From a virus: a stretch of 64,000 bases of DNA. Positions 19,601-63,242 of the stretch are shown here, in pieces. The notes beneath the pieces were generated by a model. The model saw only the letters and a program-made list of their open reading frames with translations. It searched no databases and had not been told where the DNA came from. The translations under genes were made by a program, and so were the position numbers. Position 1 is the stretch's first letter. Each line of letters begins with the position of its first letter. The stretch is taken from the IMG/VR virus record IMGVR_UViG_3300045999_011735, positions 50,997-114,996 of that record. The stretch is one strand, 5' to 3'.

Positions 19601-19631
19601 TAAATGTACAATTAAATAAACGGGTTTCCAA
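19601..19631 (-). promoter_or_regulatory. Early-type promoter of the DUF932 gene
   Basis: The minus strand reads CTTGGAAACC, 14 bases, then TACATTTA, just before the leader at 19587. Confidence 0.65.
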
Positions 19632-25963: not shown

Positions 25964-25984
25964 TATAACGTTTATAATAAATAT

Positions 25985-26097
25985 TGGTTGCGGAGAGAGG
26001 ACTTGAACCTCCACGCTGCTCAAAGCAGCAGACGCTTGTTTCGCGCCTCATGTCTACCATCGGTAGTCGTACGCCTACTCGCTTTCACCACTCCGCA
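25985..26097 (-). tRNA. Oversized tRNA-like gene, anticodon unresolved
   Basis: The acceptor stem is a perfect seven-bp TGCGGAG/CTCCGCA with discriminator A and an encoded CCA. The T arm is GGAGG-TTCAAGT-CCTCT, and a GCTGC/GCAGC hairpin may be a variable arm. The gene is 113 bases with CCA, at least 20 longer than normal class II tRNAs. The extra part forms CTACC-GAT-GGTAG. No seven-base loop with T33 fits well; the best stem has loop GAAACAA. It may be a degraded, interrupted or specialised tRNA. Confidence 0.55.
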
Positions 26098-27078: not shown

Positions 27079-27090
27079 AATTTAATTTAG

Positions 27091-32254: not shown

Positions 32255-32257
32255 TTA

Positions 32258-32956: not shown

Positions 32957-32961
32957 GTTTT

Positions 32962-39377: not shown

Positions 39378-39380
39378 AAT

Positions 39381-40007
39381 CTATATTTTTTCGTAAAAAG
39401 CATTTTGTTTTTCTTGACGCTCAATTGTTTTAGAATGTACTAATTCATATCCTTTAGGTAAATTAGCTATTGTTTTCCAACCTGCAAGACGCTCGTGTAC
39501 TTTGTTAATCCACGTTATTTCCTTTTTATTAGCGCATATACGTGTTTGGAAATCAGGATAATTAACCCACCCATTATCATCTACAAACCATCTCCATTTA
39601 TCAATGTGATCACGAGTTAATCCTTCGACAGTATTAATTCTAGGTACGGCGATTAGATCTACTAAATCTTTATTCATGTCTAATATACCATGAATATTTT
39701 CAGCTAATCCATCACTTAGATATTCATCTGCATCAATAAAGAATACCCAATCACGTGTACAGTGGTTTTTAACATTATTTTTAAATGATGCAAAGTCACC
39801 ATTTAGTGAAGCGAATATTCTATGATATTCAAAAGATTGTCCAACATTATATTTGTTGGCTACTTTTTTAACCTCGTCTGTAGCAGTTGAATCTAATTGA
39901 ACCATTATTTCATCACCTGGTTTGATGATGGTTACTAGTTGATCTAGTAAACGCTCTAGTTCAACATGTTCATTCCATGCTGTAATTGCAAAACTAATTG
40001 TAGACAT
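39381..40007 (-). CDS. GT2-family glycosyltransferase
   Basis: This is a 208-residue protein: SFAITAWNEHVELERLLDQL, DEIMVQLDSTATDEVKKVA, TRDWVFFIDADEYLSDGLAE with the DAD metal motif. The short length and the missing C-terminal acceptor domain resemble small SunS/WaaE-like enzymes. It is four bases from its upstream neighbour. Confidence 0.8.
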   Translation of the reverse strand: MSTISFAITAWNEHVELERLLDQLVTIIKPGDEIMVQLDSTATDEVKKVANKYNVGQSFEYHRIFASLNGDFASFKNNVKNHCTRDWVFFIDADEYLSDGLAENIHGILDMNKDLVDLIAVPRINTVEGLTRDHIDKWRWFVDDNGWVNYPDFQTRICANKKEITWINKVHERLAGWKTIANLPKGYELVHSKTIERQEKQNAFYEKI

Positions 40008-40010
40008 AAC

Positions 40011-40256
40011 TTAGTCATTTAATAACTCTTTTTTAGATTCATTAGATACTGAATTTGTATCTGTTGATACCCACTGTTTATATTTTTCAGCAGCACTTAG
40101 TAAGGTTTCATTTGGTTCATAGTCATAATAGATAACATCATCATTTACTTCTTTGATTTTTTCCTTTAACATGTCCCATTGAGCTGGGGTTATGTTATGA
40201 TGATGTGCTCCTTCCATGAATCCTTTAAACCAAATTACAAAGTCTCTACTTGTCAT
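40011..40256 (-). CDS. Conserved phage hypothetical protein
   Basis: This is an 81-residue protein starting TSRDFVIWFKGFMEGAHHHN and continuing ITPAQWDMLKEKIKEV, a pattern common in small proteins of large phages. Function unknown. It overlaps the next gene by four bases. Confidence 0.65.
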   Translation of the reverse strand: MTSRDFVIWFKGFMEGAHHHNITPAQWDMLKEKIKEVNDDVIYYDYEPNETLLSAAEKYKQWVSTDTNSVSNESKKELLND

Positions 40257-40684
40257 AACGAATTTAATTTTAAAATAGCAGATGCAAATGATTCTCTTGG
40301 AAAATGTTCCATTAAACTCATATCAATTCTATGAGTTTGATTTTTTGGAAAACGTGCTTTTTCCTCTTCTTTAATTGGTACTAATGGAGCAACTGTCCAT
40401 TTCCAAGCATCTTTATTACTTCCATTTGGAAATAATATACCTTTTTCAGCTATATTGATTGTACTTGGATACCATACGAATCCATCTTTATCTACTATTT
40501 CTAAATCTTTAATTAGTTCTGGGAGTGATTCTTTTGCATTTGTTACAAAGTCGCTGTCCTGTACCATGTGTGAAGTGCTTCCGTATCCACAATTAAAACA
40601 CATCCATTGAATGAATTGTTCATGATGATACTCATAACACATTTCAGCGTCACAACATGGACACTTAATTAAATTGTCAGTCAT
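40253..40684 (-). CDS. Zinc-ribbon protein
   Basis: This is a 143-residue protein. CPCCDAEMCYEYHHEQF followed by WMCFNCGYGS gives two CxxC pairs of a zinc ribbon, and the C-terminal part is beta-rich. Role unknown; zinc ribbons of this type often contact RNA polymerase or nucleic acid. Confidence 0.7.
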   Translation of the reverse strand: MTDNLIKCPCCDAEMCYEYHHEQFIQWMCFNCGYGSTSHMVQDSDFVTNAKESLPELIKDLEIVDKDGFVWYPSTINIAEKGILFPNGSNKDAWKWTVAPLVPIKEEEKARFPKNQTHRIDMSLMEHFPRESFASAILKLNSL

Positions 40685-40707
40685 AATATAAAGGTATAAA
40701 CTATATT

Positions 40708-40893
40708 TTAGAATCCAAACAACTTCTTAATTTTATCTAATAAAGATGTTTTTATTTCAACATCACGATTAGATACAAATGGAGTTGTTTCTGGAGCAAG
40801 AACTGGAAGTTCAACATTCTTTTTCTTTGATGTTGGTTTCTTTGCAGTTGTTGCTTTTTTAGTTGTTACCTTTTTTGTGGTTTTCTTTTCCAT
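40708..40893 (-). CDS. Lys/Thr-rich small protein
   Basis: This is a 61-residue protein with a KKTTKKVTTKKATTAKKPTS tail-like N-terminus, similar to histone-H1-like low-complexity tails, and a C-terminal helix LLDKIKKLFGF. It may bind DNA or RNA. An ATATTTATA box lies 17 bases before its ATG. Confidence 0.65.
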   Translation of the reverse strand: MEKKTTKKVTTKKATTAKKPTSKKKNVELPVLAPETTPFVSNRDVEIKTSLLDKIKKLFGF

Positions 40894-40909
40894 GATTGAT
40901 TTGTTTGTA

Positions 40910-40918
40910 TATAAATAT
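40910..40918 (-). promoter_or_regulatory. Second-class promoter box ATATTTATA
   Basis: The box lies between the GT4 gene end and the Lys/Thr-rich gene, 17 bases before the ATG at 40893, with no -33 element. Confidence 0.45.
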
Positions 40919-40921
40919 AGA

Positions 40922-42223
40922 TTATTGTTCTATCTTTTTAAGTTTAGGCAACTTAAGTTCAACTTGTTTTGGAAATTCAGGAGTATACTTTTTAAGTAAT
41001 TCGTCTAACACCTCAACCATTTTGTCAAATGAGAAATTTTGTTTATTTCTGTATGCGAGGCGTTTTGCTTTTTCTTGATATTCTTTATAGTTGGTAAATA
41101 CATCCATTAAAGCATGTCCTGATTGGTTATCATCAGGTTTGAACCACATTGATTCAGCCAATATTGTATTAGCAACAGCCGCACTTGGGTGTACTTGATT
41201 TAATGTACCTCCTACTAAGCCACAGAGTTCAGAATTTAAGAAATCTAAATGCCCACTCCATCCACTAGCAATAATTGGTTTTCCAATAACACTAAATTCA
41301 AGTAACGGGCGTCCAAATCCTTCACCTTTAGTAAAGGACACCATTGCTTTTACTTTTGGGTGGTTGTATATGCAATTTACTTCATCATCACTCAAATCAC
41401 CATGGATTAAGTAGATATTAGGTATATCTTTTGAATTTACTGTTTTTCTAATATCATCTATCTTCTTCAAAATATTGTCTCTATCTATAATTGAAGGAGC
41501 ACCTTGTGATACTTTTAAAATTAGTCCTGGTTTGTTTTTCTTTCCTTTAAATACTTCAAGGAATGCTTTAATCATGTATCCAACATTCTTTCTATCTTCA
41601 GCATAGTCACCTTGCAACCAGTGCCCTACAAATAAGTAACAGAATTCTTCTTTAATTGTATTTAAATCATCATAAATGTCAAAATCAACAATATCGTCCG
41701 ATTTAAAATATTTATTTAAATCAGCACCTTCAAATAATATTTCAAGTGGTTTTTTTAATTCAATTACGTTTACTAATTGACCATTTGGTGCTTTCTGTTC
41801 AAATTTACTACTTTGAAATACTTTTTTAGAATGATCAGATGATACTAAATTTAGAGTCATTCTATTACAACCTTCAATCCAACTAGGATCGCATGTTGTA
41901 GTTTCAATACCTGCTGTAACACCAATATTGAATTTACCTAATGGTTGAAATTCATTTGGTACTGTAATTTGGATCCATACTTCAGGTTGTTTAGGAACAC
42001 TCATTGTTAGTTTTCCAATGATTCTATTTTTCAAATCTTCTTCTTCAGCAATGTTTGTATCTAAAGCACCGAATGGTGTTTGTCCCCATCTTTGAGATAA
42101 TATTTTAATATCCCATTCTTCACCTTTAATTTTGATAAGTGATTTTACAAAATCACGAGATCTAGCTCCGTATCCACTATACGTGTCAATAGGGCAACTT
42201 ACTATACAAAGTGGTTTACTCAT
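40922..42223 (-). CDS. GT4-type (GT-B) glycosyltransferase
   Basis: This is a 433-residue protein. The N-terminal domain has SGYGARSRDFVKSLIK, and the C-terminal donor domain has YLFVGHWLQGDYAEDRKNVG and a late VSFTKGEGFGRPLLEFSVIG with the E-x7-E motif, then KPIIASGWSGH. Full length for family GT4. It overlaps the second GT4 gene by four bases. Confidence 0.8.
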   Translation of the reverse strand: MSKPLCIVSCPIDTYSGYGARSRDFVKSLIKIKGEEWDIKILSQRWGQTPFGALDTNIAEEEDLKNRIIGKLTMSVPKQPEVWIQITVPNEFQPLGKFNIGVTAGIETTTCDPSWIEGCNRMTLNLVSSDHSKKVFQSSKFEQKAPNGQLVNVIELKKPLEILFEGADLNKYFKSDDIVDFDIYDDLNTIKEEFCYLFVGHWLQGDYAEDRKNVGYMIKAFLEVFKGKKNKPGLILKVSQGAPSIIDRDNILKKIDDIRKTVNSKDIPNIYLIHGDLSDDEVNCIYNHPKVKAMVSFTKGEGFGRPLLEFSVIGKPIIASGWSGHLDFLNSELCGLVGGTLNQVHPSAAVANTILAESMWFKPDDNQSGHALMDVFTNYKEYQEKAKRLAYRNKQNFSFDKMVEVLDELLKKYTPEFPKQVELKLPKLKKIEQ

Positions 42224-43662
42224 AACGAAATTACAGTTTTATTTTGTTTTGCAGGTAATTCTTCAATTTTTATAAAATTATAACATTCTCTAGGCTCCCA
42301 TTTTTCAAGAGTTTTATCAATATATTTGATAACATTTTTAGCCATATTTTTAGATGTCATCATTGCTTCATCTGATGTAACCCATTTACGAGCGGCTTCT
42401 CCTCTACGTTTACGTTCATCAGAACTTAATTCATATAGTGCTTTTATTTGAGCAGCTGCATCTCTAAAATCAGCTCTATCATCAAAGATATAAGGTGTTG
42501 GGACTGAACCTACAAGAGATAAATTTGATGGAAATACTGGGAAGGCCCATTCACCACATTTTTTATATTTTCCAAAATGGTTTGATCCAAATTCTTCAGT
42601 GAATTTAATCCATTCACCATTTTCATCTTCAAAGCGCATTTGGTCTTGCATACCACCAGTTACGTTGGCAATGATTGGTTTTCCACACATCATAGCTTCA
42701 GTTAAACTTAATCCCCATCCTTCATTCGATGAAATCAAAATACAAGCATCCATTGAATTGTATAGTAAATTCATTTGTTCAGGAACAAATCTATTTAATC
42801 CTGTAATTAATACATTTGGAGGATTTTTACCCCAAATCATTTCAATTACAGCAGGAATATCTGTTCCGTTTTCATCTACAGGGTGTGTATGAGCTATAAA
42901 TGCTACTTTATCTTTTTTATCTTCTGGAAGTTGGTCTACAAATAATTTCCAAGCTAATAGTACATCTGGGAATGATTTGCGTCTAATGTTTCTAGAGTTA
43001 AATCCTAAAACAAAGTCAAATTCTTTTTTTCCAAATATGTTCTTTTTAAACTCTTCAAGTTCTTTTCCTTTATCTGTTCCTTCCTGAATAGGGAAGAATA
43101 CATCTTCATTTATACCATGAGGCACATATCCTATTACTTTGTCTTTGGCTTTATCACCTAACACAGCATGATTTAAGTTTTCAGTCTGTTTAGAAATAGC
43201 TAATAAACCATCACATGATTCGTAATATGGTCTGTTGTAAAGTGGATAAGGCAATGAATCCCAAATGTTCAAATAAATAATTGGAACTTGAGAACGTATC
43301 TCTCTTTCATGCATCCACAACCAAATCCAATAACGTGGATCTGTAAACAACATGATTGCGTCTGGTTTTTCAACTTCAAGTAATGCTCTAATGGCTTCAA
43401 TAGTTCCATATCCAGAACTAGGGTATAATGTTACTTGAGCATCTTCAATTCCATTAAATTTATTTGCATCTGCACTTAAATCTAATTTTTTACCTTCGTC
43501 TGGGTGTTTGATTGTACTACCTAAATTTATCCAATTGTAGTAATGGCAGGTACCTAAAATCATTTCCCTTGCCATAGTTGCAATACCAGAAGTTGTTCTG
43601 ATATCATCTGATAATAGTAAAATCTTTTTACGTTGTGCTTGTGGAATGTAACCTTCTTTCAT
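42220..43662 (-). CDS. GT4-type (GT-B) glycosyltransferase
   Basis: This is a 480-residue protein: LLLSDDIRTTSGIATMAREM at the start, LAISKQTENLN, FVLGFNSRNIRRKSFPDVLL (phosphate/UDP region) and ILISSNEGWGLSLTEAMMCG (E-x7-E), then KPIIANVTGGMQDQM. Full length. It joins the replication operon to the sugar island with an 18-base gap to the upstream small gene. Confidence 0.85.
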   Translation of the reverse strand: MKEGYIPQAQRKKILLLSDDIRTTSGIATMAREMILGTCHYYNWINLGSTIKHPDEGKKLDLSADANKFNGIEDAQVTLYPSSGYGTIEAIRALLEVEKPDAIMLFTDPRYWIWLWMHEREIRSQVPIIYLNIWDSLPYPLYNRPYYESCDGLLAISKQTENLNHAVLGDKAKDKVIGYVPHGINEDVFFPIQEGTDKGKELEEFKKNIFGKKEFDFVLGFNSRNIRRKSFPDVLLAWKLFVDQLPEDKKDKVAFIAHTHPVDENGTDIPAVIEMIWGKNPPNVLITGLNRFVPEQMNLLYNSMDACILISSNEGWGLSLTEAMMCGKPIIANVTGGMQDQMRFEDENGEWIKFTEEFGSNHFGKYKKCGEWAFPVFPSNLSLVGSVPTPYIFDDRADFRDAAAQIKALYELSSDERKRRGEAARKWVTSDEAMMTSKNMAKNVIKYIDKTLEKWEPRECYNFIKIEELPAKQNKTVISL

Positions 43663-45766: not shown

Positions 45767-46678
45767 TTATTTTATTTTTAGTATCTGTGATATAAACGCC
45801 ATGAAGTTAATTTCTTTATCGGCAATACTGTTATTTTGCCATAAATATTGGGCTGAATGGATTGCTATATCGGCAGGTGCATTTGAATATTCAGTTACAC
45901 GTTCGTATAAACCGGTAAATAATGGTACATAATCATTTATGTCTGCGTCTGCTATTGTTTGTCTGATATCAGTCCATGCTGTTTTGCTCTTTGATTTTAG
46001 GTGCTTTATAACGTCATTTAAAACACCTTCAACATTAGCAACTAATGCTCCTGGATTTAAATTATTACTGTCATCTACTGATTGTTGAGATGCATTAATA
46101 ATTTTTCTAATGTCAGGATAATATGTTTTAACTAGAGCAGCAATGTCTGTTAATTCATATTTTACTTTTTCTTGATCTAAAAGCCAAGCTAAATGTTTTG
46201 CAACATCGCCTTTAGCAGGTGGTTCAATATGAAATGTTTGGCATCTGCTCTTAAGTGGATCAATAATACGTTCAGCATAGTTAGCTGTAAGTATAAATCG
46301 TGTTTTTGCAGAATATGTTTCCATTACATTACGCAATGCGGCTTGTGCTTGAGCAGTAATATAATCGGCTTCATCCAATATTACTACTTTAAGTGGATTA
46401 AAACTATTTACAGAGGCAAAATCAACGATTTTATCTCTAATAGTGTCAATACCTCTTTCATCAGATGCGTTAATATACATTATATCACACTTGATATTTT
46501 TAGTAATTAACTTAGCTAATGTTGTTTTACCTGTACCAGGTTTTCCAAATAGCAGTAAATGAGGAATATCATTTGTAGTGATACATTTAGAAATGAAGGC
46601 TTTTACACCCTCATTTCCAACGTATGTATCTAGTGTTTGGCTACGATATTTCTCAACCCATAGGGAATTGTTCGCCAT
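45767..46678 (-). CDS. gp44: Clamp-loader large subunit, gp44/RFC-like
   Basis: This is a 303-residue AAA+ ATPase: Walker A GKPGTGKT at 45-52, Walker B LDEADY around 101 and the SRC motif at 144-146 (arginine finger). It also has the RFC-type sensor ILTANYAERI. Length fits gp44 (about 320). It loads the sliding clamp with gp62. The start overlaps the end of GroEL by 26 bases. Confidence 0.92.
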   Translation of the reverse strand: MANNSLWVEKYRSQTLDTYVGNEGVKAFISKCITTNDIPHLLLFGKPGTGKTTLAKLITKNIKCDIMYINASDERGIDTIRDKIVDFASVNSFNPLKVVILDEADYITAQAQAALRNVMETYSAKTRFILTANYAERIIDPLKSRCQTFHIEPPAKGDVAKHLAWLLDQEKVKYELTDIAALVKTYYPDIRKIINASQQSVDDSNNLNPGALVANVEGVLNDVIKHLKSKSKTAWTDIRQTIADADINDYVPLFTGLYERVTEYSNAPADIAIHSAQYLWQNNSIADKEINFMAFISQILKIK

Positions 46679-48284
46679 CTTTATCTTTTTTAGGTTCGTT
46701 ATAGATTACACATTCAGTCAATAATACAGTACCTGCTACTGAAATGGCATTTTCAAGTGCTGTACGAGCTACTTTCATTGGATCAATAATGCCTGCTTCA
46801 AACATATCTTGTACTGTTTCTGACTTAATGTCATATCCAAATGTACGACCATTTGTAGGGTTTTCCTCTCTAGCTTTTCTAAGGGCAAAGATAATTTCAT
46901 CTTTGTTTTCAATTCCAGCATTTGATAGGATTTTGAGGAATGGAGAACCACAAGCAACATATGCTATTTTCTTTCCTAAATTAAAGTCTTCACCATCATC
47001 TTTCTTAAGTGTGATTTTCTCTCTTGCTTCGAGTAAAGCTACACCACCACCTGGAAGCAATCCTTCTTCAAGTGCTGCTTTAGTTGCTTGTAAAGCGTCA
47101 TCAATGCGGTCTTTCTTTTCTTTCATTTCGGTTTCAGTAGCACCTCCGATATTAATCACAGCTACTCCACCTACTAGTTTTCCAAGGCGTTCTTGCAAAT
47201 GTTCTTTTTCAAATGCAGAAAGTGATTTTCCAATTTGTTCTTTAAGTTCTGCAATACGTGCTTGAACGTTTTCTTCAGAACCACTACCATCTACAATTGT
47301 AGTAGTGTCTTTAGTTACAGTTACTACTCTTGCTTTACCGAACCAGTCTGAATTAAAACGCTCTAGTTTCATTCCTTTTTCAGGTGAAATTACAGTACCA
47401 CCAGTTACAGTTGCAATATCTTCCAAAAGTGCCAAACGACGGTCTCCAAAGTCAGGAGCTTTAACAGCAACTGCCTTTAACATTCCTCTCATTTTATTTA
47501 CAATCAATGTTGATAGTGCTTCACCATCAATATCTTCTGCAATAATTAAGAGTGAACTGTCTGTTTGTGAAGTACCTTCAAGTACTGGAAGTAATTCTTT
47601 AACTGATGTTAAACGTCCATTATAAATTAAGATCAATGGATCTTTTAAAATAGCAGACATTGTACTGTTGTCTGTAGTGAAATACATTGATTTGTATCCT
47701 CTATCAAACTGAATACCTTCTACTGTTTCAAGTGATGTTTCACCTGTTTTACTTTCTTCAACAGTAACAACACCATCCATTCCTACCATATTCATAGCTT
47801 CAGCTACTAATGCTCCAATTTCTTCATCATTATTTGCTGAAATAGTAGCTACTTGCTTGATTTGGTCTTCAGAATTGATGTCACGTTTAATTTCATTTAA
47901 ACCAGCAATTACTTCTTTAGATGCTGCTTCAATACCTTTCTTTACTAAAACCACATTAGTATTAGGATTAATACTTGAGAATGATTTAGTAATTAAGGCA
48001 TTTGCAAGCACAGTTGATGTAGTTGTACCATCACCTGCTTTATCTGCAGTTTTAATAGATGCTTGCTTAATCATTTGAGCACCTATATTTTCAATTGGGT
48101 CTTCAACGTCTTTAAGCGTTTTTGCTACTGTAACACCATCTTTGGTACTACGTACAGTTCCGTATTCATCAATGAATACTACATTACGGCCATAAGGTCC
48201 GAGCGTTGAGCTAACGGCATCAGCCACTTGCTTAATACCATTAGCTAATTTTTCTTTTGCTTCTTGATTGAAAGCTGTTTTCAT
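46653..48284 (-). CDS. groEL: GroEL chaperonin
   Basis: This is a 543-residue group I chaperonin: LANGIKQVADAVSSTLGPYG start, AGDGTTTSTVLANAL (ATP hydrolysis Asp region), ISANNDEEIG, the apical-domain IAEDIDGEALSTLIVNK and the late GGGVALLEA. It is full length but ends EQFPMG instead of a GGM tail. In the phage, GroEL would fold abundant virion or replication proteins. The catalytic GDGTTT is intact, so activity is expected. Confidence 0.95.
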   Translation of the reverse strand: MKTAFNQEAKEKLANGIKQVADAVSSTLGPYGRNVVFIDEYGTVRSTKDGVTVAKTLKDVEDPIENIGAQMIKQASIKTADKAGDGTTTSTVLANALITKSFSSINPNTNVVLVKKGIEAASKEVIAGLNEIKRDINSEDQIKQVATISANNDEEIGALVAEAMNMVGMDGVVTVEESKTGETSLETVEGIQFDRGYKSMYFTTDNSTMSAILKDPLILIYNGRLTSVKELLPVLEGTSQTDSSLLIIAEDIDGEALSTLIVNKMRGMLKAVAVKAPDFGDRRLALLEDIATVTGGTVISPEKGMKLERFNSDWFGKARVVTVTKDTTTIVDGSGSEENVQARIAELKEQIGKSLSAFEKEHLQERLGKLVGGVAVINIGGATETEMKEKKDRIDDALQATKAALEEGLLPGGGVALLEAREKITLKKDDGEDFNLGKKIAYVACGSPFLKILSNAGIENKDEIIFALRKAREENPTNGRTFGYDIKSETVQDMFEAGIIDPMKVARTALENAISVAGTVLLTECVIYNEPKKDKDGEQFPMG

Positions 48285-52879: not shown

Positions 52880-55288
52880 TTAGTTCTCACGTCTTTCTTC
52901 TGGTTTATAATATACAATCCTGTTGTGCCAAACTGGTGCTGCTAATAATATTGCTGGTTTAATATGTCCTCTCATTGTTTCTTGGAACATATATGACATC
53001 CATGTTTGTTCAAATGGATTTGCCCATTCAGTTTCTAGGAACATTTTATAGTTACCTTTTTTGTTTACAATCATAGGCCAGTTTGCATAATATATTTCTC
53101 CGGTTGCATAAGATAATTCACCATTTACTTCAATTCTATCAAATTTAGTTCTTGGAGCGTATGGGTCTAATCCTGATACTGGTAGTTGGTCATAATCAGG
53201 CCATACAAATGTTCTTACTGATTGTGGTACATTATACCAAGATACCTGAATGTTATTGTCCATGTATACTTCAGTATATGATAATTTGAGGAAATCAAAA
53301 TCTTCCTTAGCCATTATTTCATGAATCTTCTTCCACAAGTCAGGAACGAATTTTCTAAATCCATTTCTACAATATCCTGTTTCAGTTGAAGGATAGAACC
53401 CCATATCATCTTCAAAGAATAAGTAATAGTCACTATCTGATTCTTGGAAATGTTTTGCAGCAAATAATCTTCCACCATTAATCCCTTTATTTTCGTTCAT
53501 AATGATATGTTCAAAACCATATTTGTCTGCTACTACTTTATTATCAATTCGTGCTTGTGGATCTGTAGAATTATCAATTAGTATTTTCTTATGTGGTTTT
53601 TCTAGCCAATCAGGTGAATTTGCTTTCCATGTAGCTAATGTGTGTTCAATTTGTTGAGGGAAATTAAACGTAAGCATGTACAATGATGTTTTATCTGTAG
53701 TAGCATTGTATATGCTCTTAGGCAATACATGGGCACGTTTACTATTATTTTCTAATTGTACTTGATCGTCTAATAATGCTTGTACAAACTTAACAATTAA
53801 TCCATTATCATCTAAAGCAAAACGTCTGTAAAGATGTGGTTCAAGATGTGCCATGATACTAAAGATACTTTCTTCAGTACCCATATATCCTTCATCTAAA
53901 GTACCTTGTAACAAAGCATAATAAGTACCATTTGCTTGAGTTAAGAAATCTTTATGTCCACCAAACAATCCACCTCTACAAACATATTCTACTTTTTCAC
54001 GAGCATATCTGTTAATTCCTTTAACTTCAAACCCATGAATTTCATCTACAGGCTGGTAAGGGTAACTTAAGAATAGGAATGTTTTTAAGTATGGGATAAT
54101 TTTATCTAGTGCTCTGTTTTCTGTAAAGTATTTTTCATAAACAGTATTTGTAATACCTGCATCAAGCCATAAGAAATAATTTGTATCAAATACATTCATT
54201 ACTTTAGCATCATGCAACATGAACATTTTTGATTGTACAATTGGATTGTACCATTCAAGTGCTGCTTGAGGACTACTTTTCAACCAACCATTTTCTCCTG
54301 TTTGATTAAGCCATTTTTCACTTGTTCTTATTTGTTGGGTTTTATCCCAAAACGGAGCATAAAAGTTATTTTTAATGTCGTCTAATTCAAAGTTTCTAAC
54401 GTGTGTGTTTTCAGGTTTACGTTTTTCCCAAACTAGATATTCATATTCTTTAGGAATATAAATAAACATTTTTACAGGTATATCTAGGAACTTTCTAAAG
54501 TTTTCAATATAATGACTAAAGTCTCTACCTGGTCTTCCTATGTTCCATAATCCAGTTACTAAGGTTAAATCATCAGTTGTTTCTAATGCTTTAACTGGTT
54601 CAGACATTTGTACTTGTTGTCTTAATTTATCCAACTCATAAAATGCTAATCCTTTTCTAACACCATTATCGTATCCGTCTACTTTAGGTTTTTCCTCAAT
54701 GTAAAATTCAGGTTTAGGAAAATTAAAAGGTGCTGAATGTAAGCATACAGGATAAAAAGCAGCAGCTCCTCTATCCCAATTTGCTTCTACTGTTACAGTA
54801 TTGTCTCTATTCTCATGAGTATAATTTGGATCATTTAAACTATACCAAGTAGTAGTTAAAAGATATTTACATTTTGATTTTAAAATATTTGCTATTGCTT
54901 TTTGTCCACCATCTAAAGTAAGATGTCCCAATACATCTCTTACAATCAATAAATCACCTTCAGGTATTTCAATACCGTCTTGTGTTAAGTCTAATTCTTT
55001 AAAACTAATTATTGAATTTGCAAACTTTTGGTTGTCCTGAATCATTTCAGGTACAATATCACAACCTGTATATTTTTCAAAATTGTATACAATGTCTTTC
55101 ATCCAGTTAAAGTCCCCACAAGGAACATCAACTACAGATTTTATTTCTTTGTCTTTAACTAACTGTTTGATTTGTTGCCTAATAATATCAGTTTCTTCCA
55201 TGGTGCTTCCAGGGCCACTTTTACTTTCAGGCCAACCACCAAATCTCCAGTTTGTGTAAACGTCTTGAAAAGTTTCTTTTAAACTCAT
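52880..55288 (-). CDS. Three-domain methyltransferase / HtrL-like / GT2 protein
   Basis: This is an 802-residue protein. Residues 1-200: methyltransferase with SVVDVPCGDFNWMKDI and YTGCDIVPEMIQDNQKF and LLIVRDVLGHLT. Residues about 225-520: HtrL/YibB-like unit with FLWLDAGITNTVYEKYF and CRGGLFGGHKDFLTQ. Residues about 540-802: GT-A domain with YMLTFNFPQQIEHTLATWKA, NENKGINGGRLFAAKHF and YYLFFEDDMGFYP. Such a fusion suggests that methylation and sugar transfer act on the same growing glycan. It is coupled to the carbamoyltransferase by a four-base overlap. Confidence 0.8.
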   Translation of the reverse strand: MSLKETFQDVYTNWRFGGWPESKSGPGSTMEETDIIRQQIKQLVKDKEIKSVVDVPCGDFNWMKDIVYNFEKYTGCDIVPEMIQDNQKFANSIISFKELDLTQDGIEIPEGDLLIVRDVLGHLTLDGGQKAIANILKSKCKYLLTTTWYSLNDPNYTHENRDNTVTVEANWDRGAAAFYPVCLHSAPFNFPKPEFYIEEKPKVDGYDNGVRKGLAFYELDKLRQQVQMSEPVKALETTDDLTLVTGLWNIGRPGRDFSHYIENFRKFLDIPVKMFIYIPKEYEYLVWEKRKPENTHVRNFELDDIKNNFYAPFWDKTQQIRTSEKWLNQTGENGWLKSSPQAALEWYNPIVQSKMFMLHDAKVMNVFDTNYFLWLDAGITNTVYEKYFTENRALDKIIPYLKTFLFLSYPYQPVDEIHGFEVKGINRYAREKVEYVCRGGLFGGHKDFLTQANGTYYALLQGTLDEGYMGTEESIFSIMAHLEPHLYRRFALDDNGLIVKFVQALLDDQVQLENNSKRAHVLPKSIYNATTDKTSLYMLTFNFPQQIEHTLATWKANSPDWLEKPHKKILIDNSTDPQARIDNKVVADKYGFEHIIMNENKGINGGRLFAAKHFQESDSDYYLFFEDDMGFYPSTETGYCRNGFRKFVPDLWKKIHEIMAKEDFDFLKLSYTEVYMDNNIQVSWYNVPQSVRTFVWPDYDQLPVSGLDPYAPRTKFDRIEVNGELSYATGEIYYANWPMIVNKKGNYKMFLETEWANPFEQTWMSYMFQETMRGHIKPAILLAAPVWHNRIVYYKPEERREN

Positions 55289-56916
55289 AATTTCATGTAT
55301 TTTCTGATGTATTCGTTTTCTATAATTAATGTATCCATTTGTGTGTTTTCAAACACGTTAAATGCATCTTTTAATGTGCTAAGTATAGGCATTCTGTTTA
55401 CGTTAAATGAAGTATTTAATATAACTCCAATGCCTGTTTTTGCTTCAAACATAGTAATTAAATCGTACAACCATGGGTTTTGTTCTCTAGTTACTGTTTG
55501 AACACGAGCAGTATTGTCAACGTGTGTAATTGCTGCTAATTTTTCTCTCCATTCCTCACGTACAATTGGAGCATAAGACATCCATCTTGCATCTCTATTC
55601 CATTCAAAGTATTTATTTACATCTTCTAAACGTACAACTGGAGCAAATGGTCTATACCATTCTCTATGTTTTACTTTAGCGTTTAAGATATCTTTCATTT
55701 CTGGGAATGAAGGATTACAAATAATACTTCTATTGCCTAATGCTCTTGGTCCATGTTCACCTCTATCTCTTACAACGCCTATAATTTTACCTTCAGCTAA
55801 ATCATCAATTACTTCATCCATGTTTAATTCATCTTTCCACCATGATGATTGGTTAAAGTAGTATTGGAACATATATTTGTCCATTATAGGTAAACCAGCA
55901 TATGTAATATCTATTGGCTCTTCAGGTCTTAAAAATCCAGCCATTAAACCAACTGCTAAACCACAGTCATTAGGGTTAGGACCTACAAATACATCTTTAC
56001 CAAACTCATTTACTAAACGAGTATTTAATAAAATGTTTAATCCACATCCACCTGTAATGCCAATAGGCAAATCAGGGAATAAATCAAAATAAGGTTTTGC
56101 TATTTCTAAGAAACATTCTTCAAATGCTCTTTGTGAAGTTGCTGCTATATCCCAAGCAAGTTGTCCTTCTAATCTGTTATGTTCATCAAACGTAACACCT
56201 ATGCTTTCACCTAGTGGGATCATTTTTTCTAAGTAAGTATGTCCTTGAGGATCGCTTTTATAATATTCTTTAAAAGCATCCATCCATTCTTCTCTTACAT
56301 TACCGTATGAAACTAGACCCATTATCTTTCCAGCATATACTAAGTTTCCTTCACTTAATCCTTCAAAACTAATATCTTTTAAATAGTGTCCTATCAACAT
56401 ATAAGGAAAACCTAAGTCATAGTCAATCCAATGTTCTCCCATTGTTGGGCAAGCTAATCGTTCTAAAAGTTTTGGATGTTGTCCTCTTTGACAGTAGAAT
56501 ATATTAAATTTTCCATCATCACCTCCTCCATCAAATGAAAATACTAATGCTTCTTTATGTGGGGATTGATAAAAGGTACCAGCAGCGTGGGCCTGATGGT
56601 GATGATATGAAATATGCCTATCAGCTGGTATAACTTCATGTGTGCGTAGTAATACATTATCTACTACTAGATCGGTGTTCATTGAAATACAATGTTCAAA
56701 ATGTTCAATGCCGTATTCTTCTTTTACAAATGCAAGAATACTCTTTATAATTTCTACAAAGTCTCTATAATTTTTATGTTTTGGGCATTTATATTGAGCA
56801 AGTCCTGAGTTTTTATACCCTAAAAAGCGTTCAACTTCAATTACAGATATAATTTTTCCGTCTTGCTCAATAGCAAAAGCAGCGTTGTGGGACCCGTAGT
56901 ATGCTATATTTGCCAT
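55285..56916 (-). CDS. NodU/TobZ-type O-carbamoyltransferase
   Basis: This is a 543-residue protein. The N-terminal Kae1-like domain has the metal-binding SYHHHQAHAAGTFYQS (His105-110) and VFSFDGGGDDGKF, and ITGGCGLNILLNTRL. The C-terminal YrdC-like domain has RGEHGPRALGNRSIICNP, WYRPFAPVV and ILNTSFNVNRMPIL. The family moves a carbamoyl group from carbamoyl-phosphate and ATP to a hydroxyl of a sugar, as on Nod factors and tobramycin. Here, among glycosyltransferases, a sugar O-carbamoylation is expected. Confidence 0.9.
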   Translation of the reverse strand: MANIAYYGSHNAAFAIEQDGKIISVIEVERFLGYKNSGLAQYKCPKHKNYRDFVEIIKSILAFVKEEYGIEHFEHCISMNTDLVVDNVLLRTHEVIPADRHISYHHHQAHAAGTFYQSPHKEALVFSFDGGGDDGKFNIFYCQRGQHPKLLERLACPTMGEHWIDYDLGFPYMLIGHYLKDISFEGLSEGNLVYAGKIMGLVSYGNVREEWMDAFKEYYKSDPQGHTYLEKMIPLGESIGVTFDEHNRLEGQLAWDIAATSQRAFEECFLEIAKPYFDLFPDLPIGITGGCGLNILLNTRLVNEFGKDVFVGPNPNDCGLAVGLMAGFLRPEEPIDITYAGLPIMDKYMFQYYFNQSSWWKDELNMDEVIDDLAEGKIIGVVRDRGEHGPRALGNRSIICNPSFPEMKDILNAKVKHREWYRPFAPVVRLEDVNKYFEWNRDARWMSYAPIVREEWREKLAAITHVDNTARVQTVTREQNPWLYDLITMFEAKTGIGVILNTSFNVNRMPILSTLKDAFNVFENTQMDTLIIENEYIRKYMKL

Positions 56917-56917
56917 A

Positions 56918-57979
56918 TTAATAAGGTTCTGTGTGAGGCCATGCGTTGCGGTCCTCTAATATTTGTTTTAAATCTTTGTTTTTTTCAATAAAGTCTTCTT
57001 CACTATCACCAGGTATAAACTTAGTTCCTAATCCTGGAGCCCCTCCATTTAATGGGAGAAAATATCTATCTGTAAAATGAATTTGTCTGTTGTAAACAGT
57101 ATTAGGGAAATTCAATACTTTCATTTGTTGATAGACATTAGTAGTTGCTACAGGCATATAATCACATGTCATATATCCTCCACACTGTTGATGTTGTCTT
57201 AAAAATGTGTTTGAATGGAATAATCTAATAACTTCATTCCAGGTTTCAAAATACTTTTGTACTTTTTCTGGGGATTCGAAATGGTAGTATCTAAAAGGAC
57301 CTTCAGTTAAAGGTAATTCAGTAATTACTTGTGGTTTAACTACATTATCTGCTTTATATAATTCATGAAGAACAATAGAACATGCTTGTAAAGCACCAAA
57401 TGATTGTCCCATTCCCATAGCCATTGACCATACAAAGTCAAATGTACCTTTTTGTTGGTTGAATGTATCTTGTCTTATTCCTAACAATTCATAAACACAT
57501 CCCTTCATTGAATTTACAGGCGAATCAAATTCAGCCCAAAATTGTTCTTCAGTTAATTCACCACTTACTATTTTATCGTAACGTAATTTTACATCACCAT
57601 CCATGAATACAACTTTATTGTATCCTAATTTTGCAATAGTTGGAAATGAAAATCTGTGTAGTGAATATGAAAATAGTTTTCCCTTAGATAAAGATTCCAT
57701 GTATTCATCACCATATTGTTTTGGATCTGTAGTAACAGCTGGAATAAATTCTAATTCTTTAGACCATTCATATTCTTGTCTTGCTTCGTGTATATTTACA
57801 ATTGCTTTAATTTTACCCGTTTGTTCTGCAAATTCAGTAAAATCTTCAGGCATGTCAGTTAAAACAACATAATCCATCATGTTGTCATAACCCATTTCAA
57901 TTGCATCAAGAATATTTAATTTAACGCGCTTGCGATACGAAGGGCCAAAACCCCAAAGTGAAACAATTGGTTTATCCAT
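56918..57979 (-). CDS. GT-A-type glycosyltransferase-like protein
   Basis: This is a 353-residue protein with GKLFSYSLHRFSFPTIAKLG and VVFMDGDVKLRYDKI (DGD metal motif) and a late FHSNTFLRQHQQCGGYM segment. It resembles GT8-like phage proteins. Related to the gene at 14903, in which the DGD is lost. It lies one base from the carbamoyltransferase start. Confidence 0.7.
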   Translation of the reverse strand: MDKPIVSLWGFGPSYRKRVKLNILDAIEMGYDNMMDYVVLTDMPEDFTEFAEQTGKIKAIVNIHEARQEYEWSKELEFIPAVTTDPKQYGDEYMESLSKGKLFSYSLHRFSFPTIAKLGYNKVVFMDGDVKLRYDKIVSGELTEEQFWAEFDSPVNSMKGCVYELLGIRQDTFNQQKGTFDFVWSMAMGMGQSFGALQACSIVLHELYKADNVVKPQVITELPLTEGPFRYYHFESPEKVQKYFETWNEVIRLFHSNTFLRQHQQCGGYMTCDYMPVATTNVYQQMKVLNFPNTVYNRQIHFTDRYFLPLNGGAPGLGTKFIPGDSEEDFIEKNKDLKQILEDRNAWPHTEPY

Positions 57980-57982
57980 AAC

Positions 57983-58921
57983 TTATTCTAATATTGTTGG
58001 GTCAAAAACTTTAAAAAATTCGTCTACTATTTTATTCGGTAATAAATATTTGTCATAGTAATCTATATTATTTCTAGATATAGACATTAACAAATCATCA
58101 TTATTGATGTTTTTCTCTACACTATCAATAAAATATTCTGCTATTCTTTCTAATGGTATCCCTGGGTATATCATAAAAGCTAAATCAGAAGGAGGAGTAG
58201 CAGCTATGTAATTTTGTCCAGGATATAATCCTTTATACATAGGTGTTAATGCTTCTGATCGGATAATGGGAATACCTAGCCCCATTGATTCAAAATCTCT
58301 AACACACCATTCTCCAGCTCCATTTAAGGATAATGTAAGAGCATATTCATTCATTTTTTGAAAATATGTTTCTCTAAAATACCCATCTTCTCTTCCATAA
58401 ACATCAAATAAAGGATGTTTACGTAATATATCAGCTACTACTCGTCTAGATTCATATAAACCCCCTATAAAACATGCTTTACGTATTTTTTTAGTTGGAT
58501 CATATGGCTCTCTAAATTGTTTAATGTAGTCGTAAATATAATAAAATTCTAATGGATATAAAAATGGAGTAAATTTAGCATTATACTTTTCCATTATTTG
58601 TTCTGGGGTCATATAAACACCTAATCCTCCAATTATATGAACAATATCAAACATTTCCCATCCTTCATGCCTAAGCATTTCTAATGTTCTATCCCAAAAA
58701 CTTACTAATGTTGTTTTTCTATTAGCATCATTAGTAATCTTCATAGCTGCTGTTCCTGAACGTGTAGATGGTCCTTGAGATATAGGGAACAGTTCTTGTA
58801 CGTTTACTGCTTTTTTAGTTATATTAGGGTAGTGAAGATTCAGTTCAAGAAATATTCTATCAAATACATACTGAAATCCTTGATTTCCCATTCCAAAAGG
58901 GTATTCTACTATTAAGTGCAT
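57983..58921 (-). CDS. Glycosyltransferase (GT-B, exostosin-like end)
   Basis: This is a 312-residue protein: YPFGMGNQGFQYVFDRIFLE start, IRKACFIGGLYESRRVVADI and TLSLNGAGEWCVRDFESMGL followed by GIPIIRSEALTP, the donor-binding end seen in exostosin-like and GT1/GT4 proteins. The N-terminal acceptor domain is short. It shares a base with the start of the GlcNAc-type gene. Confidence 0.65.
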   Translation of the reverse strand: MHLIVEYPFGMGNQGFQYVFDRIFLELNLHYPNITKKAVNVQELFPISQGPSTRSGTAAMKITNDANRKTTLVSFWDRTLEMLRHEGWEMFDIVHIIGGLGVYMTPEQIMEKYNAKFTPFLYPLEFYYIYDYIKQFREPYDPTKKIRKACFIGGLYESRRVVADILRKHPLFDVYGREDGYFRETYFQKMNEYALTLSLNGAGEWCVRDFESMGLGIPIIRSEALTPMYKGLYPGQNYIAATPPSDLAFMIYPGIPLERIAEYFIDSVEKNINNDDLLMSISRNNIDYYDKYLLPNKIVDEFFKVFDPTILE

Positions 58922-60213
58922 TACTGGGGTTTGTAAGTATAGTTAACTAGTCCTTCAATTCGTTCAGCCCATCCTTGAGATTTACTATGTGCCCAAATAA
59001 CCCAACGATGTGGAATTTTATCAGTTAAGAAGAATTTTTCTTCATTATACCATCCTGGTGATAACATTATATTTTTTATTTGGTGTTCTTGATAATCTTC
59101 TCTCCATATTTCCTTTCCCTCTGCATCATCAAAAGCACAAACCCAAAAATCATAGTCATCATGTTTAAATTGAGCTTTATCAAATTGAACTAAATGATAA
59201 AATGAAAACATAAATGAGTTTTCCCATTCTTCATCATTTTCAATTACAGGATTAGGAGGATATTTGTTATCATAAGTATAACGTTGTACTGAACGCTTTT
59301 TAAAATGAATACCAGCATACTTCTCATAGTCGCGAAGTGTACGCTCAGTTCCTAAATCGTATCCTGTTAAATCAAACCCATTATCTTCTGTGCGTAGTAA
59401 TTGTCTAATTTTAGATCTAGCAATAGTTTGTTGTGACCACCAATCTTCACCTCGTTTATGTTGATCATCCCAAATTAATATGTTGCTTCTTTCTTCACGC
59501 ATCGTAGCATGCCATACTACTAATTTGTGAGGATGGAAGAAATCATATCCGTGAGTATAAGAACGTACTGTTAAATTAAGTTCTTCACCACTAAAGTAAA
59601 TATCTTGGTCATGTAAAATTGTTTTTCCCCAATGTCCATCTGCAAAGCAAAAATGGCCTGATAAGAATCTTGATGGTGCTGGTTCAGTCATATTCTGCCA
59701 TCCATGTAATAATGAAGGGCGAATGAATATAGTACCATGCGGATAAAAGCAAGCAAATGTTTGTTGCCAAGGCTCCATTGTTCTATCAGCAGGGTCATTA
59801 AACGGGTTATAATAAGGTAAATATGCCGCTAAAATCGGTTTTTTAACACCTTTAGCTTTAAGTTGGTCATGCATTTCAATTAATGTAACATCCCAACCTT
59901 CAGCAAATCTATGGTGTGAATCAAGTTGACAGATATATTCTTCATCTTTCAACATTGTATTAATTTGGTAGCGAGCATAAGGCAATCCTTTGGCTTCAGT
60001 ATAATGAATATCCATTATTCTAAAACGAGGATCATCTCTAAATTCATCTACATTATCAAACCCATCTTCAGGATTAAATTGTCTACAAATACCAAATACT
60101 AATCTATTAGGATAAGTAGCGTTTTCAAGTGCTGATTTAATAGTAGGAACCAATTCTGGTTCTCTATAGGCAGGTAAATGGATAAAAATTTTTCTTGAGT
60201 TTGCTTTTTTCAT
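58921..60213 (-). CDS. GlcNAc-type glycosyltransferase (tandem copy 1)
   Basis: This is a 430-residue protein of the GlcNAc glycosyltransferase family (PF11397 type): IFIHLPAYREPELVPTIKSA, EYICQLDSHHRFAEGWD with the DSH metal motif, FLSGHFCFADGHWGKTI, IYFSGEELNLTVRSYTHGYD, and a C-terminal accessory part. In amoebae such enzymes start O-GlcNAc chains on cytoplasmic proteins, so protein glycosylation is possible. Paralogue of the next gene. Confidence 0.85.
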   Translation of the reverse strand: MKKANSRKIFIHLPAYREPELVPTIKSALENATYPNRLVFGICRQFNPEDGFDNVDEFRDDPRFRIMDIHYTEAKGLPYARYQINTMLKDEEYICQLDSHHRFAEGWDVTLIEMHDQLKAKGVKKPILAAYLPYYNPFNDPADRTMEPWQQTFACFYPHGTIFIRPSLLHGWQNMTEPAPSRFLSGHFCFADGHWGKTILHDQDIYFSGEELNLTVRSYTHGYDFFHPHKLVVWHATMREERSNILIWDDQHKRGEDWWSQQTIARSKIRQLLRTEDNGFDLTGYDLGTERTLRDYEKYAGIHFKKRSVQRYTYDNKYPPNPVIENDEEWENSFMFSFYHLVQFDKAQFKHDDYDFWVCAFDDAEGKEIWREDYQEHQIKNIMLSPGWYNEEKFFLTDKIPHRWVIWAHSKSQGWAERIEGLVNYTYKPQ

Positions 60214-61496
60214 TATCTAGGTATTTCTTGTTCAATAATTTCAGTATTCCAGTCTTTAGATACACTATGAGGCCATAGTTTCCAACTATGAGGCATTTCA
60301 TCACATTCAAATGTTCTCCAAATGTGATAGAAATGATCATCTTTAGGAGATGAAGCTATAATATCTTTAACTTCACTTTCACTAGCATCCATTCTATTAA
60401 TTTCATTACCATTTTTGTCTTTAAAGGCAATCACCCAACAATCATAATCGTTTTCAGGTAAAGATCCTTTATAAACATCTATACAGTATTTAAATCTTTT
60501 TACATAATTATCTTCCCATTCTTTTTCATTTTTGAATGGTATAGGAAGCATTTTTTGTTCTGCTGTATGTTTTTGTACTCGTTTTCCTTTAAAATCTACT
60601 CCAACGTGACGTTCAAATTCAGATAATGGACGTTCTTTACCTAAATCAAACCCTACAAAATCAAGTCCTTCTCTACTTTCATCATCTATTCCAAATAATG
60701 CTCTATATTTTCTAAATGAAAATTTATCTAAAGGAGAAAATTGATGATCATCCCAATGTCGTTGTTTTCCTTGCCTTGTATACTCATGCCAAATTATTGG
60801 TTTATGAGGATGGAATAAATCATATCCGTGTGTAAATGCTCTAGCAGATATTGATGTTTCTTCTCCATGAAAGTAAAAATCAGGATCATGTGGTACATCA
60901 TGTACAAATGATCCTAAAGTAAAACCAAAGTGTCCTGAATAAAATCTTGCTGGGATGGGTTCAGTGTGTTTTTGCCAATTGTCAACATGACAAGGAACAA
61001 TGAATATAGGACCTTCAGGCATAAATCTATCATAATTAGTATGCCATACTTCTATATTACGTCCATCAGGATCATTATTTGGAAAGTATCCAGGTAAATA
61101 AGCGGTTAGTAGTGGTTTTTTATGGCCTTTCTTTTGAAGACCTTTTAACATATCAATTAGTGTTTCATCCCAGTTTTTAGTAAAACGGTGATGTGAATCT
61201 AATTGTAATGTGTATGTTTCACCATTATAATATCTTTGCAATCTGTTTCGAGCCCAACAAACGCCTTTAGCATCTTTGTAGTGAATATCTATAATTTTAA
61301 AACGAGGATCATCTAAATATTCAGTTAAGTGATCCCATTCGTCTTCTTTAGCATGTTGCCATGCAATGCATATTCTAAGATTCTCAGGCCATTTTGCATT
61401 ATCAAGCATGTCCTTAATTGTAGGACGTAATTCGGGATCTCGATATGAAGCTATTTGGACGAATATTGTTTCGTCGTGAGTTTTTTTTCTTGCCAT
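60213..61496 (-). CDS. GlcNAc-type glycosyltransferase (tandem copy 2)
   Basis: This is a 427-residue paralogue of the gene at 58921 with the same motifs: IFVQIASYRDPELRPTIKDM, TYTLQLDSHHRFTKNWD, FYSGHFGFTLGSFVHDVPH and FYFHGEETSISARAFTHGYD. Stop and start of the pair share one base. The C-terminal domains match in length but diverge more, which suggests different acceptors. It is the first gene of the second glycan block and follows a terminator. Confidence 0.85.
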   Translation of the reverse strand: MARKKTHDETIFVQIASYRDPELRPTIKDMLDNAKWPENLRICIAWQHAKEDEWDHLTEYLDDPRFKIIDIHYKDAKGVCWARNRLQRYYNGETYTLQLDSHHRFTKNWDETLIDMLKGLQKKGHKKPLLTAYLPGYFPNNDPDGRNIEVWHTNYDRFMPEGPIFIVPCHVDNWQKHTEPIPARFYSGHFGFTLGSFVHDVPHDPDFYFHGEETSISARAFTHGYDLFHPHKPIIWHEYTRQGKQRHWDDHQFSPLDKFSFRKYRALFGIDDESREGLDFVGFDLGKERPLSEFERHVGVDFKGKRVQKHTAEQKMLPIPFKNEKEWEDNYVKRFKYCIDVYKGSLPENDYDCWVIAFKDKNGNEINRMDASESEVKDIIASSPKDDHFYHIWRTFECDEMPHSWKLWPHSVSKDWNTEIIEQEIPR

Positions 61497-61547: not shown

Positions 61548-61575
61548 AATATAAGGGGGACCTTTTGGGTCCCCC
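61548..61575 (-). terminator. Hairpin terminator after the tail-fibre gene
   Basis: An eight-bp stem GGGGGACC/GGTCCCCC with a five-base loop lies 30 bases after the stop at 61605. On the minus strand it is followed by TTATATTTATTTT. The opposite direction has AGTTTTTATT, so it may work both ways. Confidence 0.8.
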
Positions 61576-61604: not shown

Positions 61605-63242
61605 TTACACTGTTCTTATCAAAACAAAACTTCCACTTCTATATAAACCACCAAGTGGCACACCACCAGTTGCAGCGGCAGCATCATCTACGAAATTAAG
61701 ACTTTGTGATACTGCAGTTAAAACTACAAAGCTAGAAGCAGCAAGAGATCCTGATATATCTAATGTGTAATTAGGTAATGATTTATTGATACCTACTTTA
61801 GCATTAGTCATTGAACCTGAAAAAGGATCCAGATTAAAAGGATCATAAGCATAAGATCCTGTTGCAAAAATTACACCACCTAAGTTAATAGAATCTCTTC
61901 TATTATTTTCTAAAGTAATGTTAGTTCCGATTATGATATTATTAGCTCCAATTCCAGCACCTGATACTCTTTTACCAGCTTGCCATCCTATTAAGTTTGA
62001 GAAAGAAGAGCTTGCTGCACCCTGTCCAGCACTACGTCCTATGAAATTGGACTGTTCTGCTAAAGTTGCTTGATCGCCAGCAAAATCTCCTATAAAATTT
62101 GATTGTTGAGCGTACGTTGCACCTTGTCCAGCTGCATTTCCAATAAAGTTTGAGGTACCAGCATTTGAAGCATTTTGACCAGCACTGGTTCCTATAAAGT
62201 TTGAACCAGCAGAACTTGCTGCATTTTGACCTGCTTGGCGTCCTATGAAGTTTGATTGTAGAGCATTTGTTGCACCATTACCAGCATTGTAACCTATAAG
62301 GTTTGCATAAGAAGCATTTGTTGCATTAAAACCAGCATAATATCCTGAGAAGTTTGAATAGGAAGCATTTGTAGCATATCCACCAGCTCCTTCTCCCATA
62401 AAAATAGAATCATTAGCAACCGGTGTATCTACTCCTGCTGTAGTGCCAAAAATAATTGAACCTGTTCTATTAAAATTGGTGCCAGCAAGAGGATTATTTG
62501 AGTATAAGGTAGAACCTAATACTGAGATTGGAACATTTAGTGCAAATGAAGCAGATCTTGCATTAGTAGCAAATGAAGCAGATGTAGCATTAGTAGCAAA
62601 TGAAGCAGATGTAGCATTAGTAGCAAATGAAGCAGATGTAGCATTAGTAGCAAATGAAGCTGTACCTTGAAGTGAACCTGTAATGCCACTAGTTACATCT
62701 AATGAACCTGTAATTTGGACTGAACCTAAAATATTAGTTCCATTATCTGCTACAATATCAATATGTTTAACTGAACCATAATTATCAACTTTAACATATG
62801 TTATATCATCACCAATAAATAATTGACCGCCACTTGCTGTGATATGTGTGTCGGTTGGTGATGTATTATATACTTGTAAATACCTAACATCATTTGCGTC
62901 AGGTTGTAAAATTAAACTTCCTGTTCCTTTAATTGTATTTGTTACAGTTATTGAACCACTTATCGTTTGATCACCTTTAAATGTATTTGAACCAGTTGTA
63001 GCGAAGCTACCTGTATTAATTGCTCCACCAGCATTTAATGCAAATGATGCAGTTAATGCATAAGAAGCACTTGTAGCATTATTAGCAAATGAAGCACTAA
63101 TAGATGAAGTTACTTGTGGTAAAGAACCTGCTAAATTAGCTATAGTAAGTTGAGAGGTTGTACCAGAAGCTACAATAGGTAGTACAGCATTATTAGCTGC
63201 TGAGGACGCTGAGGGTAATTGGGATATTTTTACGTCAGACAT
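61605..63242 (-). CDS. Repeat-rich tail-fibre-like protein
   Basis: This is a 545-residue protein. The N-terminus VKISQLPSASSAANNAVLPI is typical of tail-fibre and tail-spike proteins of Bacteroidota phages. The middle has beta-structured ITGSLDVTSGITGSLQGTAS and four perfect NATSASFAT units. Residues about 275-430 hold about ten repeats of the form SNFIGxxAGxxA, and the end has GVPLGGLYRSGSFVLIRTV, a common C-terminal module. A trimeric beta-helical fibre that binds host glycans is likely. Confidence 0.8.
   Translation of the reverse strand: MSDVKISQLPSASSAANNAVLPIVASGTTSQLTIANLAGSLPQVTSSISASFANNATSASYALTASFALNAGGAINTGSFATTGSNTFKGDQTISGSITVTNTIKGTGSLILQPDANDVRYLQVYNTSPTDTHITASGGQLFIGDDITYVKVDNYGSVKHIDIVADNGTNILGSVQITGSLDVTSGITGSLQGTASFATNATSASFATNATSASFATNATSASFATNARSASFALNVPISVLGSTLYSNNPLAGTNFNRTGSIIFGTTAGVDTPVANDSIFMGEGAGGYATNASYSNFSGYYAGFNATNASYANLIGYNAGNGATNALQSNFIGRQAGQNAASSAGSNFIGTSAGQNASNAGTSNFIGNAAGQGATYAQQSNFIGDFAGDQATLAEQSNFIGRSAGQGAASSSFSNLIGWQAGKRVSGAGIGANNIIIGTNITLENNRRDSINLGGVIFATGSYAYDPFNLDPFSGSMTNAKVGINKSLPNYTLDISGSLAASSFVVLTAVSQSLNFVDDAAAATGGVPLGGLYRSGSFVLIRTV
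62560..62660. repeat. 27-bp tandem repeat in the tail-fibre gene
   Basis: The unit GCATTAGTAGCAAATGAAGC plus AGATGTA is repeated without change three times, with a fourth partial copy (62560, 62587, 62614, 62641). It encodes nine-residue NATSASFAT units, and exact repeats allow slippage or recombination. Confidence 0.85.

Follow-up and report, generated by a model that had tools for sequence, protein, structure and literature searches.

What acceptor does a virus decorate when it carries its own genes for building, methylating, and carbamoylating glycans? This question is raised by a block of six genes at 52880–61496 of a 64,000-nucleotide (nt) stretch of viral DNA, which was analyzed at its full length and is hereafter called the window (positions 50,997 to 114,996 of the 115-kb record IMGVR_UViG_3300045999_011735). 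An earlier note on this DNA had left the acceptor open among a virion protein, a DNA base, and a host glycan; the evidence now favors the virion protein and disfavors DNA. We consider it probable that these genes form a cassette by which the phage carries out mucin-type O-glycosylation in the cytosol, with the Thr/Pro/Ser-rich repeat proteins of its own virion as the acceptor. The broader idea that tailed phages make true mucins, namely giant Thr/Pro/Ser-rich virion proteins that are densely O-glycosylated in the bacterial cytosol by GT60 enzymes of a type found in protists and then methylated and carbamoylated, seems to us evenly balanced. Direct observations comprise the genes, the families to which they belong, and the repeat-rich proteins, and statistics provided the conservation of the gene set and its linkage to such proteins, while the acceptor, the order of steps, the sugars, the chemistry, and the function are what we infer.

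The block proved to be real, consisting of six intact open reading frames (ORFs) arranged head to tail on the minus strand from 61496 down to 52880. The overlapping codons previously pointed out are found between some neighbors, which share 4 nt or 1 nt, whereas other neighbors are 1–3 nt apart. The first gene encodes P6 (60213..61496; 427 amino acids (aa)) and is followed by that of P5 (58921..60213; 430 aa), both being assigned by profile to the GT60 family of glycosyltransferases (PF11397; E-values, 1.3e-53 and 7.5e-70 for the two proteins; bit scores, 183 for P5 and 237 for P6 against a cut-off of 21). Both contain the motif LDSHHRF, which is invariant in 14 sequences and presumably corresponds to a DxD-like metal/nucleotide-binding motif; a search of the structure database found no solved structure with sequence similarity to GT60. 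Repeats detected inside the block were dismissed; they reflect either the two GT60 paralogues (D1, D17), which are expected to be similar, or short, low-identity chance matches. P4 (57983..58921; 312 aa) is a fast-evolving protein with a predicted GT-B fold (pLDDT of the model, 82), whose nearest structures include a mannosyltransferase, the best PDB match (E-value, 4.6e-6), and several protein O-glycosyltransferases. P3 (56918..57979; 353 aa) is a probable GT-A glycosyltransferase of the GT8/glycogenin-like type, with a weak structural match to glycogenin (E-value, 6e-4; low TM-score). Among the four further glycosyltransferases that had been proposed, P5 and P6 are solid and P4 is a GT-B enzyme by prediction, whereas P3 is weakly GT-A-like. 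The last gene encodes P1 (52880..55288; 802 aa), which had been described as a three-domain methyltransferase/glycosyltransferase; its N-terminal methyltransferase (phrog_3382; E-value, 1.6e-31) and HtrL_YibB domain (PF09612; 1.5e-9) were borne out, whereas the C-terminal GT2-like part stayed below the cut-off (E-value, 0.03). In comparison with a relative, P1, P2, P5, and P6 show pN/pS values of 0.16–0.27, and P3 and P4 of 0.40–0.57, and because of this purifying selection, which is least stringent for P3 and P4, the ORFs are not regarded as chance products.

The remaining protein, P2 (55285..56916; 543 aa), is an O-carbamoyltransferase of the NodU/CmcH/TobZ type, as the earlier note had recognized from intact motifs; it carries YHHHQAH and RGEHGPRALGNRS. 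P2 matches phrog_1601 along its full length (E-value, 2.4e-120) as well as PF16861 (2.5e-63; 213 bits, cut-off 27) and PF02543 (8.5e-22; 78.5 bits, cut-off 24), passing both curated cut-offs, and it aligns with the structures of novobiocin carbamoyltransferase, TobZ, and GdmN (7xb6, 9s2t, and 3ven). Four residues (His106, His110, Asp129, and Asp317) that align with the metal site of TobZ are invariant across 17 phage homologues; we take the corresponding TobZ ligands to be His114, His118, Asp137, and Asp338 (with a chain offset of 6). P2 is predicted to be a carbamoyl phosphate- and ATP-dependent enzyme. TobZ, NovN, GdmN, and NodU share both domains and the conserved metal-site and carbamoyl-phosphate/ATP-site motifs with P2 and act on antibiotics or Nod factors, whereas the gene for P2 belongs to a cassette of glycosyltransferases that is linked to repeat proteins of the virion. 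Judging from the gene families, the carbamoylated and methylated glycans suggested previously are well supported as a genetic program.

Scanning of viral contigs with carbamoyltransferase and GT60 alignments yielded 174 loci, 113 of which remained as independent clusters after removal of near-identical ones. GT60 and the carbamoyltransferase occur together in 60 of the 113 clusters, joined in 56 by the YibB/GT2 protein (P1), and GT60 is found nearby in 60 of the 72 clusters containing the carbamoyltransferase. The flanks differ among loci, but the genes remain arranged as GT60–(GT60)–[variable genes]–carbamoyltransferase–(extra)–P1. The middle slot, occupied here by P3 and P4, is variable, being filled among relatives by glycosyltransferases, methyltransferases, or epimerases, and in P1 the YibB/GT2 part constitutes the conserved core, the N-terminal methyltransferase being swapped or missing in relatives. 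Cultured carriers are of two kinds, namely the jumbo phages XacN1 of Xanthomonas and CM1 and RAS14 of Stenotrophomonas; among 50,697 phage records, these 3 alone contain a relative of P6. The cyanophages S-SCSM1 and Bellamy have a carbamoyltransferase, with neither a P6 relative nor repeats; in Synechococcus phage S-SCSM1 (96322–115869), it is clustered with four 2-oxoglutarate (2OG)-Fe(II) oxygenases, a GDP-fucose protein O-fucosyltransferase, and GDP-fucose synthesis genes, which suggests another protein-glycan route without GT60. Loci L021–L027 have tandem carbamoyltransferases within one cassette, followed by a small phrog_2954 protein, beside a VTPSP-repeat protein. The small protein after the carbamoyltransferase (L019–L027) was considered as a hydroxyproline-forming 2OG-Fe(II) oxygenase, an assignment not used because Pfam gave nothing and PHROGs a doubtful 'ferrochelatase'.

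The linkage of the cassette to repeat-rich proteins was evaluated in two ways. Under a strict definition of a mucin-like ORF (a 100-aa segment in which Ser + Thr + Pro make up at least 50%, with at least 15 Thr, and at least 8 Pro), such an ORF was present somewhere in the locus in 29 of the 60 clusters and directly adjoined the cassette in 18, compared with a mean of 8.4 after shuffling of positions within loci (p = 5e-5). In three loci (L011, L014, and L015), a Thr/Ser/Pro repeat protein of more than 1,100 aa lies immediately upstream of the cassette, as does another in L010 that is cut by the contig start. A DNA pattern for TP[ST]xTxTP gave 166 matches in the present record and 318 in the closest of its long relatives. 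It was found in all 14 records of 90 kb or more that carry the cassette or GT60, with 0–1 matches of the reversed control pattern; GT60 itself was present in the records tested (positive control, 20/20). Among controls matched by polymerase and picked regardless of the cassette, none of 24 had GT60 and none had more than one match of the repeat pattern, a single isolated match being seen in one (Fisher p = 2.6e-5 for the pattern when GT60 records of at least 90 kb are compared with these controls). In the reverse direction, GT60 was found in 11 of 18 viral records selected by the repeat, versus 0/24 controls (p = 7e-6). These Fisher p-values serve as guides only, since related sequences are not independent.

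The repeat proteins of the present phage lie outside the window, inside which the TP[ST]xTxTP pattern has no match. One, of 1,612 aa (T36 P16 S12), is encoded at 35900–40738 of the contig among tail and baseplate genes. The other, of 1,174 aa (T33 P16 S14), lies on the same strand as P6 and ends ~3.6 kb ahead of it, upstream, as found in a contig (L005/L392) that is 99.989% identical to this phage across 18.7 kb; in that contig (L005, 1–1818; L392), it is located just past the right end of the window, in the structural gene cluster upstream of the cassette, and the next gene encodes a methyltransferase-like protein of 256 aa. XacN1 has the cassette (ORF334 for GT60 and ORF333 for the carbamoyltransferase) and at least ten proteins with repeat stretches, including ORF325 in the fiber/baseplate cluster facing the cassette, ORF350 among head genes, ORF369 beside tail sheath genes, and ORF384, and at least two glycoproteins were reported by its authors, who named RaK2 as the nearest relative for structural genes (PMC5852040). 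Neither GT60 nor repeats were found in RaK2. Because of the association of GT60 with the repeats, the adjoining repeat genes, and the XacN1 glycoproteins, a virion protein is favored as the acceptor.

Several points weigh against this assignment. The membership of P5 and P6 in GT60 derives from Pfam similarity, and their activity is predicted; likewise, the repeat proteins are placed in the virion by their position among structural genes. The repeat gene near the cassette of this phage does not adjoin it, and several short cassette contigs lack a repeat, perhaps since they are fragments. Furthermore, the polymerase-matched controls are, among the matches listed, in most cases contigs of smaller size, and their hosts may differ, and 7 of the 18 repeat-selected records are without GT60. 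None of the 11 repeat-selected records with GT60 has this carbamoyltransferase, and carbamoylation is therefore an accessory tailoring step.

In the mechanism we propose, P5 and P6 would attach the first sugar, probably α-linked N-acetylglucosamine (GlcNAc), to Thr (or Ser/hydroxyproline) of the virion-protein repeats in the cytosol, using UDP-sugars of the host. The glycan would then be extended or branched by P4, P3, and the YibB/GT2 parts of P1 and methylated by the methyltransferase part of P1, and P2 would transfer a carbamoyl group from carbamoyl phosphate, via ATP, to a sugar hydroxyl. The product may serve as a surface shield, in spacing or adsorption, or in escape from host factors. 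Other glycan genes are present in the window. A first glycan block (30463–43662) contains three GT2 and two GT1 glycosyltransferases, two DegT-type aminotransferases, an RmlD-like reductase, a PglD-like acyltransferase, an NTP transferase, and several methyltransferases, and probably makes activated sugars. Extra glycosyltransferase-like genes are scattered at 14903–15814 (a distant P3 paralogue), 19612–20310, and 25013–26023, relatives of the last filling the variable slot in other cassettes.

Among other acceptors, the closest competitor is another virion protein, such as a capsid or tail tube protein or the Ser/Ala/Thr-rich repeat protein of 545 aa (61605..63242, minus strand), a probable virion structural protein encoded directly upstream of the cassette; the Thr/Pro repeats would then be mere linkers common to such phages. 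The position of this Ser/Thr-rich neighbor and the cassette contigs without a repeat agree with this possibility, as does the finding that mycobacteriophages carry their virion glycans on the capsid and tail tube proteins (Freeman 2023, cited in PMC12619734). Were the repeats irrelevant, however, their two-way association with GT60 would be unexpected, and we regard this explanation as unlikely. We give slightly less weight still to modification of a host surface glycan (capsule or lipopolysaccharide (LPS)), for example in superinfection exclusion. Glycosyltransferases and methyl and carbamoyl groups are typical for bacterial surface polysaccharides, HtrL_YibB genes lie near LPS genes in enterobacteria, and the block at 30463–43662 adds a second set of sugar-nucleotide and glycosyltransferase genes. 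Nevertheless, no flippase, polymerase, or lipid-carrier gene was seen within the cassette, the linkage is to repeat-rich virion-type genes, and the cassette is conserved in Xanthomonas and Stenotrophomonas phages and in many further phages.

Hypermodification of DNA, by P2 carbamoylating 5-hydroxymethylcytosine as the MetaGPA enzyme does or by the glycosyltransferases acting on DNA, appears the most improbable. A phage-type carbamoyltransferase with the same domains as P2 has been proven to act on 5-hydroxymethylcytosine nucleic acids (PMC8670742), but it is partnered by a thymidylate-synthase-type hydroxymethylase, whereas P2 has glycosyltransferases as partners. In that study, thymidylate-synthase neighbors occurred only in modified contigs and glycosyltransferase neighbors in unmodified ones. 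A search for the thymidylate-synthase/hydroxymethylase family (PF00303) found no member in the present 115-kb record (G000), in its 174-kb (G001) and 166-kb (G007) relatives, or in any of the 174 cassette loci (~10 kb on each side, where the contig permits), and this phage encodes ThyX instead; DNA-base modification is accordingly disfavored. The residues at Trp408, Gly421, and Arg423 of TobZ separate modified from unmodified contigs in MetaGPA (PMC8670742); in the alignment, P2 has Val, Gly, and Arg at the equivalent positions. Three more distant cassette-bearing relatives (L031, L032, and L033 in G004–G006) do carry thymidylate-synthase homologues elsewhere in their genomes, beside dUTPase-like and deaminase-like genes. 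With Asp at the position of Escherichia coli Asn177, these homologues are candidate dCMP hydroxymethylases and speak for the DNA explanation; because of them, hydroxymethylcytosine DNA is possible in these relatives, independently of the cassette.

Mucin-type glycosylation of virion repeats would have counterparts in several known systems. GT60 enzymes form GlcNAc-α-O-Thr on Trypanosoma cruzi mucins (TcOGNT1) and GlcNAc-O-hydroxyproline on cytosolic Skp1 (Gnt1 of Toxoplasma and Dictyostelium; PMC9472816, PMC6939170). They contain PF11397 like P5 and P6, Thr/Pro-rich mucins are a known acceptor class, and the Skp1 enzyme is cytosolic; unlike these protist enzymes, the phage GT60 proteins, whose activity is predicted, are encoded by paired tandem genes and accompanied by genes for carbamoyl and methyl tailoring. 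Phage-encoded glycosyltransferases, a feature shared by this phage, and glycosylated structural proteins are described for mycobacteriophages (Freeman 2023, cited in PMC12619734) and XacN1 (PMC5852040). The mycobacteriophage glycans are located at the C-termini of capsid and tail tube proteins, whereas long mucin-like repeats are the likely acceptor here, with carbamoylation added. In Chlorella virus PBCV-1, virion proteins undergo virus-encoded cytosolic glycosylation, as proposed here, with different families, acceptor, and virus group. The multi-domain glycosyltransferase/methyltransferase design of P1 resembles that of PBCV-1 A064R. The families are ordinary and their combination unusual and conserved, in what would be a new variant form of phage-encoded virion glycosylation. 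In the literature searched, no account of mucin-like phage proteins was found.

The gene content of the record identifies the phage as a T4-like myovirus, because it encodes a gp23-type capsid protein, gp20 portal, gp21-type prohead protease, gp25, terminase, family B polymerase, and clamp loader; GroEL (46653–48284 of the window), ThyX, tRNAs, and a tmRNA (27090–27474, adjoining a six-tRNA cluster) are also encoded. Some secreted-type proteins have a Bacteroidota-like signal peptide, which is only a hint at the host. A terminator-like hairpin (GGGGGACC-CAAAA-GGTCCCCC; 61555..61575, minus strand) lies between the cassette and the structural gene upstream of it and matches the consensus with a near-perfect stem, the number of such sites in the region being at chance level; because of this hairpin, the cassette may be transcribed apart from the structural gene. 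A promoter scan gave only chance-level results.

Only a few cases of glycosylated phage virions have been described, and they provide no general rule for the acceptor; the widespread cassette described here is tied to a recognizable acceptor class, the Thr/Pro repeat proteins. Its presence in the cultured phages XacN1, CM1, and RAS14 makes the idea directly testable. If it is true, mucin-type O-glycosylation would occur in bacterial viruses, and the cassettes would provide a family of candidate polypeptide GlcNAc-transferases that are soluble and compatible with bacterial cells. A phage carbamoyltransferase found beside glycosyltransferases should then not be taken by default as a sign of DNA modification, and carbamoylation would be new as a modification of viral protein glycans.

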